A DNA stretch of 20,255 nt from a virus: IMG/VR virus record IMGVR_UViG_3300032333_000158, positions 1-20,255 of that record; one strand, given 5' to 3'. Below are positions 4,045-14,101 of this stretch, piece by piece; position 1 is the first letter of the stretch, and each line of letters starts with the position of its first letter. The position numbers and the translations under genes are program-made. The notes under the pieces were generated by a model, which was given only the letters and a program-made list of their open reading frames with translations, was not told the origin of the DNA and made no database searches.

Positions 4045-5316
4045 ATGAATAACAGCAACATTAAAAAACTGCAGGACGAGCACGCACGCCTTGTAACAGA
4101 AGCGCGTAGTTTGCTCGAGGGTGATGTATCAAAAGAAAACGAAGAGCGTTTTGATAAGTTGATGGCTGATGCTGATGGCATCGAAGCTCGGGTTAAGCGT
4201 GAGCAACGAGCAGAAGCAGCAGAAAAAGCGATGGTCGGCAAGATTCATCAAGCTGCTGAGAAGAAAGGCATTACTCGTTCAGAAGCAGAAGGGCGAGAAG
4301 TTGAGTATAGAGATGCGTTTAGGAACTGGGCTAAGTTCGGCGAAGCTGGATTAAATGACGAATCACGAAGCATTCTTTCCTCACGTCAAGTAAATATTGA
4401 TGGTTCTGAGTTACGTGCGCAGTCAGTATCGGGCGGTTCGCCTGTTGGCATTTACGGCGGTTACACTGTGCCACCCGAAATGGTTATGAACATCGAGGAA
4501 GCATTAAAGTCATATAGTGGCGTGATGCAAATCGCTGATGAGTTCACGACTACAAGCGGTGTTGATTTGCCATGGCCGAACACCAATGACACATCGAACA
4601 AAGGTGCGATCCTCGGTGAAAATCAGCCAGTCGATGAACAAGACATTACGTTCTCGACAACCACATTCAAATCATTTTTGTACTACTCGAAATTGATTCG
4701 ATGCAGTTATCAATTGTTGCAAGATTCGGGATTCAATTTAGAAGATCACATTACACGTGTTGCTGCTGAGCGAATCGGCCGCAAACTAAATGAAGACTTC
4801 ACCACCGGCGTTGGTGTAACCACACCGCTTGGCGTCGTTAGTGGCTCTACGCTTGGCTATACGGGATTAACTCAACTCTCTATAACTTATGATGCGCTAG
4901 TACAACTAGAACACTCTGTAGACCCAGCTTATCGCTCAAGCCCAAAAGCTGCCTGGATGTTTAATGATCAAACATTAAAAGCTCTTCGCTTGATGAAAGA
5001 CTCAACAGGCCGTCCCCTTATCTGGGGACAAGACGGAAACTTAGGGCAAGGCGCTGTACCTTCGCTTTTTGGTAAGCCTTATTATATCAATCAAGATATG
5101 GCTTCACTTGGCGCAGCAAGCAAAAGCGTTTTGTTTGGTGATTTCAGTAAGTACAAAATCCGCAAGGCTCGCGAGTATGTAATGGTTCGCCTCAATGAGC
5201 GTTACGCAGACCGCTTGCAAGTTGGTTGGTTTATGTATTGCCGATTTGATGGACGTTTAATCGATGCCGGTACGCATCCATTAAAGTACTTACAACAAGC
5301 AGCATCTTCGCCTTAA
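4045..5316 (+). CDS. Major capsid protein, HK97 fold
   Basis: Main shell protein, 423 residues, starting at an ATG with AGAAGGAAA upstream. Residues about 5-75 are charged and strongly helical (EHARLVTEARSLLEG, ERFDKLMADADGIEARVKRE), which fits the scaffold-like delta domain removed by the upstream protease. The shell domain appears to begin around 125-135, near SVSGGSPVG; I infer cleavage there but cannot see the exact site. Family signatures are GGYTVPPEMVMNIEEAL, AILGENQPVDEQDITFS, YYSKLIRCSYQLLQDS, AAERIGRKLNEDFTTG, AAWMFNDQTLKALRLMKD, GKPYYINQDMASLG and LFGDFSKYKIRKAREYVMVR. The gene is flanked by terminator-like hairpins on both sides, unlike its densely overlapping neighbours. Confidence 0.96.
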   Translation: MNNSNIKKLQDEHARLVTEARSLLEGDVSKENEERFDKLMADADGIEARVKREQRAEAAEKAMVGKIHQAAEKKGITRSEAEGREVEYRDAFRNWAKFGEAGLNDESRSILSSRQVNIDGSELRAQSVSGGSPVGIYGGYTVPPEMVMNIEEALKSYSGVMQIADEFTTTSGVDLPWPNTNDTSNKGAILGENQPVDEQDITFSTTTFKSFLYYSKLIRCSYQLLQDSGFNLEDHITRVAAERIGRKLNEDFTTGVGVTTPLGVVSGSTLGYTGLTQLSITYDALVQLEHSVDPAYRSSPKAAWMFNDQTLKALRLMKDSTGRPLIWGQDGNLGQGAVPSLFGKPYYINQDMASLGAASKSVLFGDFSKYKIRKAREYVMVRLNERYADRLQVGWFMYCRFDGRLIDAGTHPLKYLQQAASSP

Positions 5317-5380: not shown

Positions 5381-5623
5381 ATGAAAATACTAAGATTTAC
5401 TGAATCAGTAGCGGGCTTAGATTTTAGCTACAACATCGGGCAGGTCGCTTTAGTCAAAGATTCTTTAGCCAAAGATTTCTTGCGCGGCAAATGTGCAATT
5501 CAGGTTGAGCAAGACGGAGAGGTAGAAGAAGCAACAACAAATAGTTTGCCCGGCTCTGAGGTGTCGGCTTTAGTAAATACGAAAAGTAAGCGTAGATATA
5601 CTAAAAAAACCTTGGCGCAATGA
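5381..5623 (+). CDS. Small head-region protein, first copy (upstream part of a possible frameshift fusion)
   Basis: Protein of 80 residues with a clear TAGGAG 8 nt before its ATG. I do not recognise a named family. It begins MKILRFTESVAGLDFSYNIG, then a segment ending KDSLAKDFLRGKCAIQVEQ, and then an acidic to basic linker ending SKRRYTKKTLAQ. It resembles the protein at 6221 (same MKI start, a G...V....A.D..R...A pattern, same length), so the two are probably paralogues. Small proteins of this type are commonly encoded just after the capsid gene. Five codons before its stop it crosses a run of seven A (5603-5609), where another frame carrying a GT42-like domain begins. It may therefore exist both alone and as the N-terminus of a fusion of about 280 residues. 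Confidence 0.75.
   Translation: MKILRFTESVAGLDFSYNIGQVALVKDSLAKDFLRGKCAIQVEQDGEVEEATTNSLPGSEVSALVNTKSKRRYTKKTLAQ
5603..5609 (+). promoter_or_regulatory. Candidate slippage site (A7) joining 5381 to the GT42-like frame
   Basis: The sequence reads ACT AAA AAA ACC in the frame of the upstream gene. A +1 shift of Lys-tRNA from 5606-5608 to 5607-5609 keeps perfect AAA pairing and continues CCT TGG CGC into the enzyme frame; a -2 shift would give one more Lys. Equivalently, six or nine A in the DNA or mRNA would fuse the frames. No stimulatory structure was identified. This is inferred from frame geometry and the position of conserved motifs. Confidence 0.45.
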
Positions 5624-5654
5624 TATCGTTTGTTGCATCGCTACCGGCCCATCT

Positions 5655-6224
5655 TTGACCGTTGAAGATGTTGAGTACGTTAAAAACAAATGCAAGATAG
5701 TTGCAGTAAATAACGCTTACAAAATAGCGCCGTTTGCCGATGCGCTGGTGGCTTTAGATACGGACTGGTGGGCTACGAATTGGAAAGACGAAGAGCTAAG
5801 AAATTTTAAAGGTTTAAAGTTTGCAACTGACCCTGATGTGCGTGACAGATTTGGCGCGCACTGGGTGCATGGCGTGATAAGGAATGGTTTATCGACTGAC
5901 TGGGATAATGTAGCCGTGGGCGCCGACTCAGGTTACTATGCGCTTGCAATAGCTGTGCTTATGGGGAGCACAAAAATAATCATGCTGGGCTATGACATGG
6001 GACATGCAAGTGACGGTAAAACTCATTTCTTTGGCGATCATCCTAGCAACTTACGTAACTGTAGTCCGTATGACTTATTTATTGAAAGGTATGAAACGAT
6101 ACCTACTTGGTGCGGTGAAAACGGTGTGCAGATTTTTAACAGCACGAGGCAAACAAGATTAAATTGTTTTAATCGTGCAAACGTTAGAGATGCTTATTCA
6201 AATTTAATAGGTAACTTCAAATGA
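5655..6224 (+). CDS. GT42/DUF115-like glycosyltransferase domain, first copy
   Basis: The part downstream of the first possible start (TTG at 5655) is 189 residues, but the true coding frame is open from 5577. Upstream codons read KKPWRNDIVCCIATGPSL, and ATGPSL is the nucleotide-sugar-binding loop expected at the N-terminus of GT42 sialyltransferase-like and DUF115/MptE-like proteins. Residues counted from the TTG show KIVAVNNAYKIAPFADALVALDTDWW (14-39, given in pieces: VNNAY, ALDTDWW), then DSGYYALAIAVLMGSTKIIM (91-110) and LGYDMG, matching the SG..A..IA...G...I.L.G.D pattern of GT42 enzymes, and HFFGDHP. The TTG has no Shine-Dalgarno and would cut off GPSL, so a fusion to the 5381 protein is more likely. 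The donor and acceptor sugars are unknown. Confidence 0.72.
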   Translation: MTVEDVEYVKNKCKIVAVNNAYKIAPFADALVALDTDWWATNWKDEELRNFKGLKFATDPDVRDRFGAHWVHGVIRNGLSTDWDNVAVGADSGYYALAIAVLMGSTKIIMLGYDMGHASDGKTHFFGDHPSNLRNCSPYDLFIERYETIPTWCGENGVQIFNSTRQTRLNCFNRANVRDAYSNLIGNFK

Positions 6225-6478
6225 AAATAAAAATCATTCGTGATTTCGTAAGCGCTGAGACTGGCGGTAGAAATATTAAAGCGGGCGAAACTTTAGAAGT
6301 CAGCAACGATTATGCAAATGATCTTGTTAGATTCGGCATTGCCGTTGTGTTTAAGCAAGAAAAAAAAACGGCAGAAGTAAAGCCAGAGTTCTTGGCAAGT
6401 GGGAAAAAGCCGCGATCATCGGCACGGGGCACAGTGCGAAAAATGCTAGGACTGAAGAGCTTAGAAGAGAAGGAATAA
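6221..6478 (+). CDS. Small head-region protein, second copy (upstream part of a possible frameshift fusion)
   Basis: Protein of 85 residues; its ATG overlaps the previous stop (ATGA). The first about 47 residues (MKIKIIRDFVSAETG, NIKAGETLEVSNDYANDLVR, FGIAVVFKQ) look like a compact beta-rich domain and resemble the start of the protein at 5381. At codons 47-49 the gene runs through nine A (6360-6368). Beyond this the zero frame continues for 36 basic, low-complexity residues, while the -1 frame carries the conserved start of a GT42-like domain. The tail after the A run may therefore only be what is made when no frameshift occurs. I cannot name a family. A role as a head-associated or carrier domain is inferred from position only. 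Confidence 0.72.
   Translation: MKIKIIRDFVSAETGGRNIKAGETLEVSNDYANDLVRFGIAVVFKQEKKTAEVKPEFLASGKKPRSSARGTVRKMLGLKSLEEKE
6361..6367 (+). promoter_or_regulatory. Candidate -1 frameshift site A_AAA_AAA (within A9)
   Basis: In the frame of the 6221 gene the codons are GAA AAA AAA ACG. The heptamer A_AAA_AAA fits the X_XXY_YYZ rule for -1 slippage, and a -1 shift continues AAC GGC AGA straight into the enzyme frame that encodes IIGTGHSA. The full A run is 6360-6368, so transcriptional slippage to ten A would do the same. A weak stem GCCAG/TTGGC (6382-6386 with 6392-6396) lies about 14 nt downstream. This is inferred from frame geometry. Confidence 0.55.
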
Positions 6479-6507
6479 AAATAGTTTGCGTTAATGATGC
6501 TGTTAAT

Positions 6508-6960
6508 TTGTTTGATAGCTATGATTTGCACTATGCCGCTGATTTAGAATATTGGGTTAAATATTTCAGCGTACACAACATTGATAATTTAAGTAAGCGC
6601 TGGACTTGCAACGATATAGCCGCACACGTGTATGGCATTAATCATGTTTCTGTTGTTCAGCAAGATGTATTCTCAAAACAAAATAATTGTGTTTCGTCAG
6701 GCGGTAATAGTGCGTTCCAAGCTTTTAATCTGTGTTTACATTTCGGCGTAAAAGATTTTTATTTGTTTGGCTTAGATATGGGTGGCGGTCATTTTTTTGG
6801 TGAGCGCTCAGGTGATTTTAAATCAGCGAATAAAACAGATTACGAAAGATGGGCCATTAATTTCAATTTTGCAATCGAGCAATATCAAGAAGAATTAAAA
6901 GTATATAACTGTTCTGCGCCATCATTACTCAGGGGGATGAAGTGCGAGCGTTTTGTTTAA
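6508..6960 (+). CDS. GT42/DUF115-like glycosyltransferase domain, second copy
   Basis: The first possible start (TTG 6508) gives 150 residues, but the frame is open from 6355, and the upstream codons encode GKWEKAAIIGTGHSA and then GIKIVCVNDAV, the conserved N-terminal half of the fold. No ATG, GTG or TTG exists in that extension and the TTG has no Shine-Dalgarno. Downstream are YAADLEYW (residues about 9-16), SSGGNSAFQAFNLCLHFGVK (about 63-82), DFYLFGLDMGGGHFFGE, and a C-terminal VYNCSAPSLLRGM. The SG..A...A...G.K..YLFG.DM core and the late N.S...L element match GT42 sialyltransferase-like proteins and mirror the copy at 5655. It is probably made as a fusion of about 246 residues with the 6221 protein. 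Substrates cannot be inferred. Confidence 0.72.
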   Translation: MFDSYDLHYAADLEYWVKYFSVHNIDNLSKRWTCNDIAAHVYGINHVSVVQQDVFSKQNNCVSSGGNSAFQAFNLCLHFGVKDFYLFGLDMGGGHFFGERSGDFKSANKTDYERWAINFNFAIEQYQEELKVYNCSAPSLLRGMKCERFV

Positions 6961-7718
6961 TAAAAGAAGAACCGCATTACAGAAGAGAAGCCTTTGTTTC
7001 AGGTTTGCAAAAACTTGGTTACAAAGTTTTCTTTGATGTCGATTTGCGCGACATTAGAAAAGATGACTTGCTTGTGATCTGGAATAGATACGGACACTTT
7101 GACGAATTCGCAAAGCTCTATGAAGCAAAAGGCTGCAAAGTCATAGTTGTTGAGAACGGATATCTAGGCGTTCAATACAATGATAAAGTTTGGTACTCGA
7201 TAGCATTAAGTCACCATAATGGCTATGGAAAATATAGATTAATTGCGGATAGATTTTTTGATCAAAATCTAAAATTTTCAGAATGGAAAACAACGGGAAG
7301 AGAAGTCGTTGTTTTAGCCCAGCGTGGCATCGGTGAGAAATCAATCGCAAGCCCTGACAACTGGGAATACTACGCTAAAGATTTGATCGAACATAAGACT
7401 GGCTTACCTGTTCGCATTCGACAGCACCCAGGGCTTACTTACGCGATCGATCTCGCTGAGGATTTGAAGAACGCAAAGTTTGCGGTTACGTGGGGGTCAG
7501 GTGCAGGAATAAAAGCCATCACGCTCGGCGTTCCCGTAGTGCACGGTTTGCAAAACTGGATAGCGAAAGATTCATCCCTGCATATCTCAGAATTTGATAT
7601 GAAAAAATTATTCAGAGGCGATAGAACAAAAACATTCTGCAATGTTTTTTCAGCTATGTGGAATCTGCAAGAAATATACGATGCGCGGCCATTCGTGGAG
7701 CTGTTGAATGAAAACTGA
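6942..7718 (+). CDS. KpsS/KpsC-like capsule-type glycosyltransferase, first copy
   Basis: Protein of 258 residues starting at GTG 6942, with AGGGGGA at 6931-6937; it overlaps the previous gene by 19 nt. The N-terminus (EAFVSGLQKLGYKVFFD, LLVIWNRYGHFDEFA, KVIVVENGYLG) and the C-terminal half (VLAQRGIGEKSIASP, RIRQHPGL near 158-165, FAVTWGSGAGIKAITLGVPV at about 180-199) have the GT-B-like layout of the KpsS/KpsC capsule polysaccharide transferases and related CDP-glycerol/Kdo-type enzymes. These add sugars at the cytoplasmic side during surface-polysaccharide synthesis. The specific sugar is unknown. It is paralogous in layout to the gene at 9089 and opens the first of two transferase-methyltransferase-glycosyltransferase trios. 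Confidence 0.72.
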   Translation: MRAFCLIKEEPHYRREAFVSGLQKLGYKVFFDVDLRDIRKDDLLVIWNRYGHFDEFAKLYEAKGCKVIVVENGYLGVQYNDKVWYSIALSHHNGYGKYRLIADRFFDQNLKFSEWKTTGREVVVLAQRGIGEKSIASPDNWEYYAKDLIEHKTGLPVRIRQHPGLTYAIDLAEDLKNAKFAVTWGSGAGIKAITLGVPVVHGLQNWIAKDSSLHISEFDMKKLFRGDRTKTFCNVFSAMWNLQEIYDARPFVELLNEN

Positions 7719-8253
7719 TTGTGATGATTTTTATAATAGTTTCGTGAAGCCAAAGCCAGGTCAAGCCTTGGTTGTTGGCTCTAAAATTTATCCAGGACGC
7801 ACAGACCAGCGCAAGAAGTTCGAGCAGTGTATCGGCTTAGACATGCTGGAAGGTGACGGGGTTGATCTGGTTTGGGATTTAGAAAACCCGCTACCGAAGC
7901 AATACTATAATTTCTCGCATGTTGAATGCTGTTCTGTTTTAGAGCATGCGCGCCGTCCATGGTTAGTTGCGAAGAACATAGAGAATTCTTTACGCAACGG
8001 CGGAACGTTGTTTGTTTCTGTGCCGTTCGTTTGGCGAATTCATGCTTACCCAAATGATTATTTCAGATTCACACCTGAAGGACTGAAAAGTCTTTTTGAT
8101 AAAATAACATTTTCAGAAATACGGATGATCGTCAAAGGTAAGATGTTTAATTACCTTGATGCGCCATCATTCACAATAGACGATGACGGCAAAGAAGCTG
8201 TTACTTTTGAACGATGCTTAGTGATGGGGTTCGGTAAAAAATGCGGATCCTAA
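7708..8253 (+). CDS. Class I SAM-dependent methyltransferase, first copy
   Basis: Protein of 181 residues; the ATG at 7708 follows GGAG and overlaps the previous stop. Rossmann-type methyltransferase elements are in order: a degenerate motif I strand (ALVVGSKIYPG, residues 20-30), motif II IGLDMLEGDGVDLVWDLENP (42-61, D45), SVLEHARRPW (76-85), LRNGGTLFVSVPFVWRIHA (95-113) and NDYFRFTPEGLKSLF (116-130). This is the Methyltransf_11 pattern seen in sugar or small-molecule O-methyltransferases of polysaccharide clusters. Motif I lacks the usual G.G.G, which is notable but occurs in this subgroup. Flanked by two transferases, it most likely methylates a sugar; a DNA or protein target is less likely because no such recognition domain is present. 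Confidence 0.8.
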   Translation: MKTDCDDFYNSFVKPKPGQALVVGSKIYPGRTDQRKKFEQCIGLDMLEGDGVDLVWDLENPLPKQYYNFSHVECCSVLEHARRPWLVAKNIENSLRNGGTLFVSVPFVWRIHAYPNDYFRFTPEGLKSLFDKITFSEIRMIVKGKMFNYLDAPSFTIDDDGKEAVTFERCLVMGFGKKCGS

Positions 8254-9092
8254 TTACCGGCAAACCCAACCAAGGCTCGTGGAAAATAAGAGCCGAACAG
8301 CTAGGCGGAGCAATATCGGCGAAGGTTATACCCGATGCGAGAATTGAAGACATCAGAAAATGCGATGTCGTCATCGTAGTTAAAAACTTCACAGTAGGTT
8401 TGCTAGATAGAATACGCTCGCTTAAAAAGCCAATCGTTTGGGATTGCGTGGACTTCTGGCCGCAGCCGCTTGGCAATACTTGGGATCGTGAGAAGTGCTT
8501 GCAGTTTTTACGCAAGAAACTATCAGGCGTTGGCCCGCAGATGGCTATAGCTGCAACAAAGCAGATGGCCGACGACATGAAAGAATGCAGGCTACCAATT
8601 AAGATTGGTTATCTAAAACACCACGCAAGACCAGACCAAAGAAAGAACGAGATACGCGACCAAATCAAAGTGATAGGTTATGAGGGCTCGCCTCGTTATT
8701 TAGATTTTTGGCGCGAGCACATCGATGACATATGCGAGCAGGCTAAATACAGATTCGTGATTAACCCAGATCATTTGGCTGATGTCGATGTGTGCCTTGC
8801 ATTGCGCGGCGGTGAGTGGGACGGATACGCAACGAGGAATTGGAAATCTAACGTTAAGCTCGCCAACATGCATGACACTGGAACGCCAGGAATACTTGGG
8901 CCTGAGGCTGGCTACTTAGAAAACCGCACGGGCGCAGAGTACCTAGTATCTGACCCAAGGCATTTAAAGTATGCGATGAAGTGGCTAGAACCAAGGGAAG
9001 TCAGACAAGAAATTAGCGAAAGGTTTTTATCTGTTGATACAAGCTTGGAATCTGTAGCAAAAGAATATTTAAAAATACTGAGCAGCTTATGA
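8241..9092 (+). CDS. GT-B-like glycosyltransferase
   Basis: Protein of 283 residues from ATG 8241, overlapping the methyltransferase by 13 nt. It starts MRILITGKPNQGSWKIRAEQ, a first strand and loop as in GT-B enzymes, followed by CDVVIVVKNF, KKPIVWDCVDFWPQPLG (62-78) and IAATKQMADDM (103-113). The second half has IKVIGYEGSPRYLDFW (142-157), VDVCLALRGG, then NVKLANMHDTGTPGILGPEA (204-223), equivalent to the donor-binding K..N....G.P.I.......E region of GT4-like enzymes. It probably transfers a sugar from an activated donor; donor and acceptor are unknown. The stop overlaps the next start (ATGA), so it is cotranslated with its neighbours. Confidence 0.65.
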   Translation: MRILITGKPNQGSWKIRAEQLGGAISAKVIPDARIEDIRKCDVVIVVKNFTVGLLDRIRSLKKPIVWDCVDFWPQPLGNTWDREKCLQFLRKKLSGVGPQMAIAATKQMADDMKECRLPIKIGYLKHHARPDQRKNEIRDQIKVIGYEGSPRYLDFWREHIDDICEQAKYRFVINPDHLADVDVCLALRGGEWDGYATRNWKSNVKLANMHDTGTPGILGPEAGYLENRTGAEYLVSDPRHLKYAMKWLEPREVRQEISERFLSVDTSLESVAKEYLKILSSL

Positions 9093-9943
9093 TTGAAGTC
9101 GAGATGTTAATCAACGAGAACACTAGAAAGCGCGGCGATATCATGCTTCGCTCGCTTGCATGTTCTGCGCAAGAGAACGGCATAACGTGCAAGATAACTA
9201 AAAAGTATTCGAGCAAGTTAAAAAATATAATGCTCTGGGGTGTCGGTGATCACGATAGAAATTTAATTTTCTTAGATCACATAAAAAACGGCGGGGATGC
9301 GTTTTGCTGGGATATGGGCTACTGGCATTCTCGCTCGGGCTCAGATGTTAGCAACGCTTATAATAGATTCTCAAAAAATCATTTCCATCCGCAAGCTTTA
9401 TTGCTCGATTTAGAACTAAAGGAAGGCTACAAAGACAGATTCGACTTGCATGATTCGCTAGTTTTTAGAGATGTCTATGATGAGAATGGCCCGATAATTT
9501 TGGTTGGGAATGGGCCTAAAACGTGCGCGCACTTGGGAATAAACAGGGGTTCTTGGGAGGCCAAAGCCTTGGCGAGAATCGTAGAAAAGTTTGGCAAAAA
9601 AAAGAAAATAATATTTAGGCCGAAACCTAACAACGACTACGAAAGTTTAGACGGAGTGACCGTTGATCAGCTTAGCTCTATTGATGATCTGATGTGCGGC
9701 GCATCGCTTGTTGTATGCCGCCACTCTAACGTTGCGGTGGATGCAATCAGAAACGGTATAGCGGTTAGCTGTGAAGATGGCGCGGCCAATGCTGTATATA
9801 ATGACGACTTATCAAACAAGCCGATAAGTCTTGATATTGCAAAAGATTTTCTAGCCAAGCTTGCGTGGTTTAATTACTCTCAGGTACAGGGTGCAACAGG
9901 GGTTTTTTGGAAGTTCGCTATAGAGCATGGGGTGATTTCATGA
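9089..9943 (+). CDS. KpsS-like capsule-type glycosyltransferase, second copy
   Basis: Protein of 284 residues from ATG 9089, overlapping the previous stop. Elements are NIMLWGVGDHDRN (46-58), AFCWDMGYWHSRSG (71-84), IILVGNGPKT (136-145), KKIIFRPKP (172-180) and CRHSNVAVDAIRNGIAVSCE (210-229). The R.KP followed by C.HSN...DAI..GI.V matches the donor-binding half of KpsS/capsule-type GT-B enzymes and parallels QHPGL and TWGSGAG...ITLGVPV in the protein at 6942, though the two have diverged strongly. It contains eight A at 9596-9603 (coding KKKK) with its reading frame intact, a useful control for the A-run frameshifts at 5603 and 6360. It opens the second trio. Confidence 0.65.
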   Translation: MIEVEMLINENTRKRGDIMLRSLACSAQENGITCKITKKYSSKLKNIMLWGVGDHDRNLIFLDHIKNGGDAFCWDMGYWHSRSGSDVSNAYNRFSKNHFHPQALLLDLELKEGYKDRFDLHDSLVFRDVYDENGPIILVGNGPKTCAHLGINRGSWEAKALARIVEKFGKKKKIIFRPKPNNDYESLDGVTVDQLSSIDDLMCGASLVVCRHSNVAVDAIRNGIAVSCEDGAANAVYNDDLSNKPISLDIAKDFLAKLAWFNYSQVQGATGVFWKFAIEHGVIS

Positions 9944-10431
9944 GACTAAATTTAGGATGCGGGCGCAAGGTTTTAGATGGCTGGTTCAACATAGATATTT
10001 CAAGATCGGATTTGGCGACTAGAGACCCAGAATTATTTTGCGATTTAAAGAAATTAAAACTTGCTGATAACGTCGCAGACGAAGCAATGGCGATACATGT
10101 CATCGAACACTTTTACGAATGGGAAGTTATTCCGCTGCTAAAAGAGTGGCTAAGAGTTTTAAAGCCTGGCGCAATGCTAGCGATTGAGTGCCCCGACGTC
10201 ATGAAGTCAGCTAAAAATTTAGTTGACGGTACGGCGTTTCAAGAAAGCATGTGGGGCTTGTACGGCGACCCGCGTCACTGCGATGAATACATGGTGCATC
10301 GTTGGGGCTGGACACCTGAGACGCTCACAGAGTATTTGAAAGACGCAGGATTTAGAAAAATAAAATCTTGTGATCCGCAATGGCATGGCAAGCGAGTGCA
10401 CAGGGATATGAGGCTGGAGGCTTACAAATGA
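9940..10431 (+). CDS. Class I SAM-dependent methyltransferase, second copy
   Basis: Protein of 163 residues. I choose ATG 9940, which overlaps the previous stop (ATGA) and is preceded by GGGGTGA; an upstream in-frame ATG at 9907 would only add 11 residues unlike the family. Motif I RLNLGCGRK (2-10), WFNIDIS (15-21), AIHVIEHF (51-58), EWLRVLKPGAMLAIECPD (69-86), and a C-terminal WTPETLTEYLKDAGFRKIK segment give a complete small Methyltransf_11-type enzyme. Methylation of a glycan or its precursor is inferred from the neighbours. It is not obviously closer to the methyltransferase at 7708 than two random members of the superfamily would be, so it may be an independent acquisition. Confidence 0.85.
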   Translation: MRLNLGCGRKVLDGWFNIDISRSDLATRDPELFCDLKKLKLADNVADEAMAIHVIEHFYEWEVIPLLKEWLRVLKPGAMLAIECPDVMKSAKNLVDGTAFQESMWGLYGDPRHCDEYMVHRWGWTPETLTEYLKDAGFRKIKSCDPQWHGKRVHRDMRLEAYK

Positions 10432-11129
10432 AAATCTATATCGGCTACGATGAAAGAGAAAAAGAGGCGTATTCAGTAGCTAGAAAATCACTCGAAAAAT
10501 ACTCAAGCGCTCGGCATGAAGTTGTAGCGCTTGATGAGCAAAACTTAAGAAAGAGCGGATTACTATCTAGGAATGTAGATAAGCGTGATAAAAAATACGA
10601 TTTAATTAGCAACGCTTATTGCTCGACCGACTTTGCAAACTCGAGGTTTCTGACTCCCATACTTGCACAAAGCGGTTGGGCTTTATTTGTAGACTGTGAT
10701 GTTCTATTCCTCGATGACGTTAGCAAAATAATACCTGACGCTTTGGCTAATAATCCGGGCCACGCTAAAGCTGTCTACGTCGTGAAGCATGACCACGTGC
10801 CGGATAAGCTGCAAAAGATGGATAACCAAATGCAAGTGAAATACTCGCGCAAGAATTGGTCTAGCGTGATGCTATTTAACTGCGATCATAAAGCTAATAA
10901 ACGACTATCATTGAGAGACGTCAACGAAAGAAGCGGCCTTGAGTTGCACCAATTCTATTGGCTCTCAGATGATGAAATCGGCGGCTTGCCGCATGGCTGG
11001 AATTGGCTTGTCGATGTACATAAAAAACCTGAAAATTTGAAGCTGGCACACTATACTTTAGGCGGCCCCTGGTTTGAGGGCTACGAATCAGAGCATAACA
11101 AGTTGTGGTTGGATCACAAAAATGAATGA
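10428..11129 (+). CDS. GT-A glycosyltransferase, GT8-like
   Basis: Protein of 233 residues from ATG 10428, with GGAGG at 10416-10420; it overlaps the previous stop. The start MKIYIGYDEREKEAYSVARK is the nucleotide-binding strand seen in GT8-like enzymes. STDFANSRFLTPILAQSGWA (66-85) precedes LFVDCDVLFLDD (86-97), whose D.D (89-91) should bind the divalent metal and sugar nucleotide. YSRKNWSSVMLFNCDH (139-154) and LAHYTLGGPWFEGY (206-219) complete the fold, the latter in the place of the HxxGxxKPW element of GT8. This protein type is common in phage and host polysaccharide loci. It is the last cassette gene, and its 3' end overlaps the connector gene by 8 nt. Confidence 0.85.
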   Translation: MKIYIGYDEREKEAYSVARKSLEKYSSARHEVVALDEQNLRKSGLLSRNVDKRDKKYDLISNAYCSTDFANSRFLTPILAQSGWALFVDCDVLFLDDVSKIIPDALANNPGHAKAVYVVKHDHVPDKLQKMDNQMQVKYSRKNWSSVMLFNCDHKANKRLSLRDVNERSGLELHQFYWLSDDEIGGLPHGWNWLVDVHKKPENLKLAHYTLGGPWFEGYESEHNKLWLDHKNE

Positions 11130-13376: not shown

Positions 13377-13736
13377 ATGAGCAATGTAATTAGTAGAGTT
13401 AGTCTTTTAAACTTTTGCAAAAAGCCGCCAGAGCTTCGAGCTATTAACGCGCTCGGCGGCGCAGAGGTTTACATCAAGCACATGTCAACGAGTGAGAAAT
13501 ACGATTGGGAATTATCAGTGCTAGACGAAGAAGGGAAAGTTAGCAAAGATTTATTGCCTAATTCTTCTTTCACGCTGATTTCAAAGTGTGTGCTAGATGA
13601 GAACCATGTTCCTTTTTTTGCAACTACAAAAGAGGTGGCAGACATCGACGCAGATTTAGCAATGGAACTGCGCGAAGTATGCCAAGAAGTAAATGCAGTA
13701 AAACCTAAGGCTACTAGCGAAGCGGGAAAGTCTTAA
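13377..13736 (+). CDS. Tail assembly chaperone, gpG-like
   Basis: Protein of 119 residues with a strong GGGGGAA before its ATG. NCKK-type start (SLLNFCKKPPELRAINALGG), EVYIKHMSTSEKYDWELSVL, VLDENHVPFF and DADLAMELREVCQEVNA fit the short tail assembly chaperone that keeps the tape measure protein soluble while the tube polymerises on it. Near its end it crosses GCG GGA AAG TCT TAA; G_GGA_AAG is the same heptamer used by lambda G/GT. A minority of ribosomes should shift to the -1 frame and make the longer GT form of about 241 residues. Confidence 0.85.
   Translation: MSNVISRVSLLNFCKKPPELRAINALGGAEVYIKHMSTSEKYDWELSVLDEEGKVSKDLLPNSSFTLISKCVLDENHVPFFATTKEVADIDADLAMELREVCQEVNAVKPKATSEAGKS
13724..13730 (+). 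promoter_or_regulatory. Programmed -1 frameshift site GGGAAAG (G/GT type)
   Basis: GGGAAAG read as G_GGA_AAG in the gpG frame matches the X_XXY_YYZ rule and is identical to the lambda G/GT slippery sequence. A -1 shift reads on as GTC TTA ATC GAT into the frame that runs to 14101. The -1 frame has a stop at 13715-13717 just before, and no ATG, GTG or TTG between there and 13781, so frameshifting is the natural route. Confidence 0.9.
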
Positions 13737-14101
13737 TCGATAACCCTAAACTGCACTTCTTATTTAAGTTAGCGCTTGGCTTGGGAATGAGTGTAGAAAG
13801 AGTTGTCAAAGAAATTTCGGCGGACGAGATCTTATACTGGGAAGCTATGTACATGATTGACCCATGGGACATAGAGCGGATCGAGCGTAGCATTGCCACG
13901 CTCACCGCAATAACTTATAACTTGCAGCTTACAAAAGAAACAAAAGACAAGGCGGTTAAAGTAAGTGATTACATGCCGTGGCTAAAAATCAGGGAAGCAT
14001 CAAAAGATAAGCAAGAAGATTTGTCACCGACATTTACGTCAAGACTGCATCAGATGAGAAAAGTTTTTAAAGCGCGACAAGAGCAAGACAAGGAATTGTA
14101 A
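13730..14101 (+). CDS. Frameshift extension of the tail chaperone, gpT-like
   Basis: The T part of a GT fusion, listed from the shift point; it has no start of its own with a Shine-Dalgarno (the first TTG is at 13781). Translation after the shift begins VLIDNPKLHFLFKLALGLGM, followed by SVERVVKEISADEILYWEAM and YMIDPWDIERIERSIATLTA, the S.....ISA.E...W.A.....PW....ID pattern common to T-type domains. The T domain binds the tape measure protein and recruits tube subunits. The full fusion starts at 13377. Three bases separate this stop from the tape measure ATG. Confidence 0.85.
   Translation, partial: VLIDNPKLHFLFKLALGLGMSVERVVKEISADEILYWEAMYMIDPWDIERIERSIATLTAITYNLQLTKETKDKAVKVSDYMPWLKIREASKDKQEDLSPTFTSRLHQMRKVFKARQEQDKEL

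Follow-up and report, generated by a model that had tools for sequence, protein, structure and literature searches.

In the tail chaperone pair G/GT of phage lambda, a short main product is accompanied by a longer product of -1 frameshifting, and the pair precedes the tape measure gene. In T7/T3 gene 10, phage A2 and Listeria phage PSA, a minority form of a head protein, with an added domain, arises by frameshifting (PMC5009743); the base protein in these phages is the capsid protein itself, its extension being Ig-like or unrelated, and non-enzymatic. A different head protein, lambda gpFI (DNA-packaging chaperone FI), is encoded directly 3' of the capsid gene in lambda, N15 and phi80 and, in the account of Popovic 2012 as cited in PMC7889075 and PMC4493119, acts through or binds the major head protein. 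As to sugars on phage heads, glycans are present on the capsids of some mycobacteriophages (PMC11256854); for the glycosylated capsids of Che8 and Rita, the glycosyltransferase genes of the relative Maravista are found near the 3' end of the genome, and neither a docking domain nor a frameshift is reported for this group.

The locus that we describe here consists of two tandem units, each formed from a small ORF and a start-less, sialyltransferase-like frame that overlaps it. As with G/GT, such a unit would yield mostly the short protein and, by -1 shifting, a longer one, and C_CCA_AAG, G_GGA_AAA and A_AAA_AAG are found at the junctions of its family; unlike G/GT, it follows the capsid gene and its extension is an enzyme. 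The same arrangement is present in Pseudomonas phage D3 as orf6.5/orf7 (L023 3840-4558), where a small-domain/enzyme unit with C_CCA_AAG comes after the capsid gene orf6; there, however, it is annotated as two overlapping genes, the second starting inside a conserved domain, and the record carries no frameshift. Two broad sources on frameshifting that we compared (PMC5009743 is one) mention no such gene; an earlier mention of the D3 overlap is possible. Our preferred reading is that -1 frameshifting in this family yields a minority, head-docked glycosyltransferase that likely acts on the capsid, with copy 2 of the locus fitting and copy 1 standing apart; we give it a probability of roughly 0.62.

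Organisation of the locus

The ‘window’—that is, the whole stretch of DNA analysed, a phage contig of 20,255 bases from IMG/VR—carries, in order, genes for terminase, portal, protease and capsid, the two units, a row of sugar-enzyme or methyltransferase-like genes, and then the head-tail and tail genes. The features that concern us are:

4045..5316, + strand: major capsid protein (HK97-type), from the ORF list; directly 5' of the two units
5381..5623, + strand: small ORF 1, 80 amino acids; gpFI-CTD/DUF7210-like domain at about residues 1-49, then a basic tail
5577..6224, + strand: enzyme frame 1, sialyltransferase-like (phrog_4603, E = 5e-36)
5603..5609, + strand: A7 run at the copy 1 junction; +1 (or -2) offset, as assembled without a canonical -1 route
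6221..6478, + strand: small ORF 2, 85 amino acids; gpFI-CTD/DUF7210-like domain, then a tail (phrog_2616, E = 5e-10)
6355..6960, + strand: enzyme frame 2, divergent sialyltransferase-like domain at -1 offset (phrog_4603, E = 7e-19; relatives in alignment A3)
6361..6367, + strand: A_AAA_AAA slippery heptamer of copy 2, within the A9 run 6360-6368 and in the frame of small ORF 2

Translation, together with the phrog_4603 matches, bears out the preliminary description of two tandem small-domain/enzyme units split at A runs, placed just after the capsid gene and with small domains of 80-85 residues that possess their own start. Small ORF 1 begins with an ATG preceded by an AGGAG-like site and matches the small-domain HMM (E = 7e-6; the sequence is included in alignment A4 of small domains), while small ORF 2 starts within the stop codon of enzyme frame 1, its ATG sharing bases with the TGA as ATGA. 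In the enzyme frames, by comparison, ATG, GTG and TTG are all absent: in frame 1 ahead of the GPSLT motif of the translated frame, and in frame 2 ahead of its conserved motif. Chance can be excluded for this arrangement, because both enzyme frames match phrog_4603 (alpha-2,3-sialyltransferase-like phage proteins) over most of their length and the split recurs in dozens of unrelated contigs and in sequenced isolates.

Elsewhere in the window (13377-14101), directly 5' of the tape measure gene, there is a lambda-type tail chaperone pair: its first ORF (13377-13736) ends GCG GGA AAG TCT TAA, containing G_GGA_AAG, and the -1 frame runs on to 14101. Judged by its sequence, this pair is an internal example of -1 frameshifting in the same phage. 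The stretch separating the head genes from the head-tail connectors (6942-11129) holds six sugar-enzyme or methyltransferase-like genes, several of which have no family match; compared with the orf12/orf13 cassette of D3 they give weak or no matches, and we do not claim them as homologues. An Rfam search of the window returned no match.

A sialyltransferase-like enzyme

The AlphaFold2 model of enzyme 1 (pLDDT 94.9) is Rossmann-like, and its best Foldseek matches are human sialyltransferases, albeit weak ones (E = 3e-3). The GxGPSL and SG..A..LG..I.L.G.D motifs align with Campylobacter CstII, again in a weak match (E = 0.02). Similarity to the Maf/MptE-like family PF01973, which we take to include the Maf flagellin enzymes, remains below the Pfam cut-off (28 bits versus 34.6), with E <= 0.001 in 30/42 relatives. 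Pfam CST-I (PF06002) has no match in the window; this is a soft negative, as the control genomes gave none either. The label ‘GT42-like’, under which the domain had been introduced, stands as a resemblance, carried by the PHROG match, the sub-threshold MptE/Maf-like similarity and the weak match to CstII; strict GT42 membership, for which the CST-I family gives no match, is not claimed.

PAJU2, a relative of D3, has a stand-alone copy of the enzyme (ORF010; L204 7780-8349) that was deposited as a ‘structural protein’, possibly from virion analysis.

How the two domains are joined in relatives

Enzyme relatives are found by tblastn in 53 records of annotated phages, Pseudomonas phage D3 among them, and scans of viral and genome contigs add some 250 further loci; for the genome contigs, the initial scan returned 0 loci and a later profile scan 12. 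Direct searches with the copy-2 enzyme, and with the copy-2 small domain in phages, gave no relatives at that sensitivity. The final census comprises 307 enzyme domains in 159 non-redundant clusters at 70% identity, with loci picked by similarity to the queries, such that its proportions are not population estimates. Within it, the survey of join types that had been called for places the small domain at -1 in 56 clusters, at +1 in five and in frame in one, with none detected in the remaining 97.

The profile behind these counts was seeded mostly from -1 loci; the presence or absence of an enzyme start is a test independent of it. In 51 of the 56 clusters at -1, neither ATG nor GTG nor TTG occurs in the enzyme frame ahead of the domain, and in many loci the start-less frame is overlapped in the -1 register by the upstream small ORF. 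By eye, an open -1 ORF can also be seen in 12 of 13 start-less clusters where the profile detects no small domain. Homologues in which the partners are always independent genes with their own starts, which had been named as the observation that would speak against a joined product, were looked for among these relatives, and this is not how they are built. Most of the other enzyme clusters (84) have an enzyme start of their own and no small domain, so docking is not required for every member.

At one locus (L094) the small domain and the enzyme share one frame; from this natural in-frame fusion it follows that the two halves work as one protein. Two further loci look in-frame by eye: L067, and L250 (via an A10 run, around 2440-2507), the latter being among the nearest relatives of copy 2. 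Four relatives (L035, L092, L110 and L222) have the small domain at +1, but their enzyme has its own ATG or GTG/TTG start, located close to where the small ORF ends.

In nine loci (L001, L002, L003, L004, L038, L040, L083, L089 and L091) the first enzyme copy is succeeded by another, divergent one, which as a rule has a start of its own and is not accompanied by another small domain; a pair of complete units side by side, as in the window, looks unusual. At L040 (2953-3004), a capsid-like ORF is immediately followed by a start-less enzyme frame, and no small domain can be made out there. Annotation of the enzyme also varies: in D3, where its conserved region begins inside orf6.5, and in phPA-G and D14Q it is annotated from an internal start with loss of the conserved N-terminus, and in phi1 it is unannotated.

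Slip motifs at the junction

Between the two domains, all 56 of the -1 clusters carry a slip motif, either a heptamer (34 clusters) or a C_CCT, C_CCC or C_CCA tetramer (22 clusters). Codon shuffles produce the heptamer in a mean of 3.9 clusters (maximum 12), and a heptamer or C_CCN in a mean of 22.5 (maximum 35) as against the 56 observed. The canonical form, X_XXY_YYZ with Y = A or T, was seen in a first set in 21/27 start-less clusters with a -1 ORF but in just 1/15 clusters where an own-ATG enzyme overlaps a -1 ORF (Fisher P = 1e-5). In a set of 35 clusters, 26 have the heptamer versus 3.4 expected (2000 codon-order shuffles, maximum 9); equal stretches just upstream give 0/35, and the other phases 8/35 and 9/35. 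Chance overlap of ORFs is ruled out by these codon-order shuffles and by the other-phase and upstream controls.

As to position, the tetramers mostly sit 11 codons ahead of the enzyme, which is the place of C_CCA_AAG in D3, and that heptamer is unchanged in 52 D3-like sequences whilst surrounding positions vary. These motifs shift in E. coli, where frameshifting at heptamers is most efficient with C_CC.A_AA.G, G_GG.A_AA.G and A_AA.A_AA.G, and where C_CC.U and C_CC.C belong to the tetramers prone to shift, given a stimulator (PMC4066793); A_AAA_AAA, the motif of copy 2, is one of the 18 shift-prone, underrepresented heptamers selected in the same study (PMC4066793). As for possible stimulators in our set, downstream folding shows no more than a slight gain (mean z of -0.98 versus -0.29 in the control) and SD-like sites precede only 14 of 49 slip sites.

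The comparison of sequences therefore strongly supports programmed -1 shifting for the family and for copy 2, which, with its A_AAA_AAA and -1 offset, fits the family rule. Because the same backward slip recurs in dozens of unrelated phages, the arrangement of copy 2 is most likely real and not a sequencing error. Copy 1 has no slip motif in the zero frame between its two ORFs that would serve -1 shifting, and no start-less +1 counterpart among the relatives; the programmed shift originally proposed for both copies is thus upheld for one of them.

A small domain resembling the C-terminal domain of gpFI

Modelled by AlphaFold2 with 36 relatives, residues 1-50 of small ORF 2 adopt a confidently predicted small fold (pLDDT 87.5). 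Fold matches in the PDB are led by ribosomal L9 N-terminal domains, with the C-terminal domain of gpFI (2lsm) at rank 31 and YqbF (2hjq) also present; among viral models they comprise numerous uncharacterised small proteins of phages, DUF7210 among them, plus the D3-like PP9W2. Aligned by hhalign with the lambda FI family, the small-domain profile matches 28 residues of the C-terminal domain (gpFI 104-131; probability 82, E = 1e-5), reportedly the part of gpFI that binds the head, whereas eight other lambda head/tail proteins do not exceed 2.2, nor do 200 shuffled alignments exceed 3.8. The match to DUF7210 (PF23843) is below the Pfam cut-off (19.2 bits versus 27), with E <= 0.01 in 5/36 members. 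The likeness to gpFI extends to gene position, right after the capsid gene; the difference is that the N-terminal region of gpFI is absent from the small ORFs, which begin at the domain itself and are extended by an enzyme that gpFI does not have.

Scored with a profile built from the D3 and Psp6 capsids, a capsid gene lies <=1 kb upstream in 45/47 testable -1 clusters versus 10/45 clusters without a small domain. The idea, put forward in the preliminary description, that the small domain docks the enzyme on the phage head is supported because of the gpFI-like profile and this conserved place after the capsid gene; we regard it as plausible rather than proven. The enzyme may act on proheads during assembly only, rather than sit in finished virions.

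Discussion

Taking these observations together, we propose that a unit of this kind would act as one gene with two products. Normal reading would give the small protein, with its domain resembling the head-binding C-terminal domain of gpFI, and a minority of ribosomes would slip back by one base at the motif between the domains and so enter the start-less, sialyltransferase-like frame. In the resulting fusion, present in sub-stoichiometric amounts, the small domain would hold the enzyme on the head, or on the prohead during assembly, from where it would transfer a sugar, probably to the capsid protein. Sequence comparison shows the split itself, the -1 rule with its slip motifs, the natural in-frame fusion, the place beside the capsid gene and the gpFI-like profile; we infer how efficient the shift is, that the small domain docks physically, and what the enzyme uses as donor and acceptor. 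As a best guess the enzyme is a capsid-directed glycosyltransferase, the group transferred to the capsid protein most likely being a sugar and probably a nonulosonic/sialic-type acid.

Several other readings bear on parts of this mechanism. RNA polymerase might slip at A runs in this phage and its A/T-rich relatives, any register then giving some fusion; such slippage would cover both copies, +1 included, and in addition to the A7 and A9 runs of the window there are relatives with A9 at -1 (L221) and A10 in frame (L250). Against it, A7 is short for efficient polymerase slippage, and many relatives without a long homopolymer at the junction (C_CCA_AAG, C_CCT_TTG, G_GGA_AAA, C_CCT) are still at -1. 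We think this explanation unlikely, even though AAAAAAA can give indels by transcriptional slippage (PMC4066793). The proposal that the enzyme is a separate protein, started at a non-canonical codon through coupling to the small ORF and with no frameshift involved, is highly improbable: it could appeal to the four +1 relatives with an enzyme start near the end of the small ORF and to the GTG or TTG found 19 codons upstream in D3-like phages, but it is opposed by the lack of any start in nearly all -1 clusters, by the consistency of that register, by the enrichment of slip motifs at the junction and by the in-frame fusion. With respect to the target, D3 converts the O-antigen of its host, and among the enzyme's relatives CstII acts on lipooligosaccharide; the fusion might accordingly glycosylate something other than the capsid (a host surface sugar or the tail), the small domain giving only solubility or timing. 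The conserved position next to the capsid gene, together with the gpFI-like domain, makes this rather doubtful, as do the Maf proteins, similar to the enzyme, which put nonulosonic acids on flagellin, itself a self-assembling protein (PMC11339370).

Copy 1 is a separate matter. The differing offsets of the two copies had been taken as evidence against a shared error, an argument that falls away, as start-less relatives are consistently at -1 and copy 1, the only start-less pair in the +1 register among the 159 clusters, is for that reason the anomaly that needs explaining. A shared sequencing error as the whole explanation is rejected, since dozens of clusters and ~50 D3-like sequences show the split as well. 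For copy 1 by itself, the chance that it is an artefact or a recent mutation, with an A7 run whose length is off its natural, functional state and a +1 offset that is not real biology, comes close to even without quite reaching it. Every other start-less pair that we found is at -1, including the nearest, weakly supported relative of copy 1 (L058, with A_AAA_AAG). On the other hand, runs of A6-A8 elsewhere in the window sit in intact genes, among them the A8 previously pointed out at 9596 (9596-9603, inside an intact ORF); enzyme frame 1 is uninterrupted for ~200 codons and shows strong conservation; and small domains of the copy 1 subtype (L035, L092) are also at +1, though there the enzyme has its own start. 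Given this unbroken frame, the unit was working until recently. Candidate explanations of its +1 register are an assembly error, a mutation in run length, RNA-polymerase slippage and a private +1 shift, and the enzyme may also not be expressed at all.

Returning to the -1 reading, one may generalise it, tentatively and at somewhat less than even odds, to a widespread and undescribed class of phage gene in which the shift would determine how much capsid-docked glycosyltransferase is made: the small product by itself would serve as a head protein of gpFI type, and the minority that has shifted would bring the enzyme to the head surface, there to glycosylate the capsid whilst it is being built. 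If true, this would be a third site of programmed frameshifting in the structural genes of tailed phages, after those in the tail chaperone and the capsid, and we know of no earlier case in which a frameshift joins an enzyme to a docking domain. The annotation of D3, a classic phage, and of its relatives is corrected, the enzyme having been cut short or overlooked there, and the natural slip sites collected across the family, both heptamers and C_CCY tetramers within a single gene family, should be useful for research on frameshifting. For the phages themselves, the unit is a possible route by which some of them could glycosylate their heads, with relevance to the immune recognition of phages.
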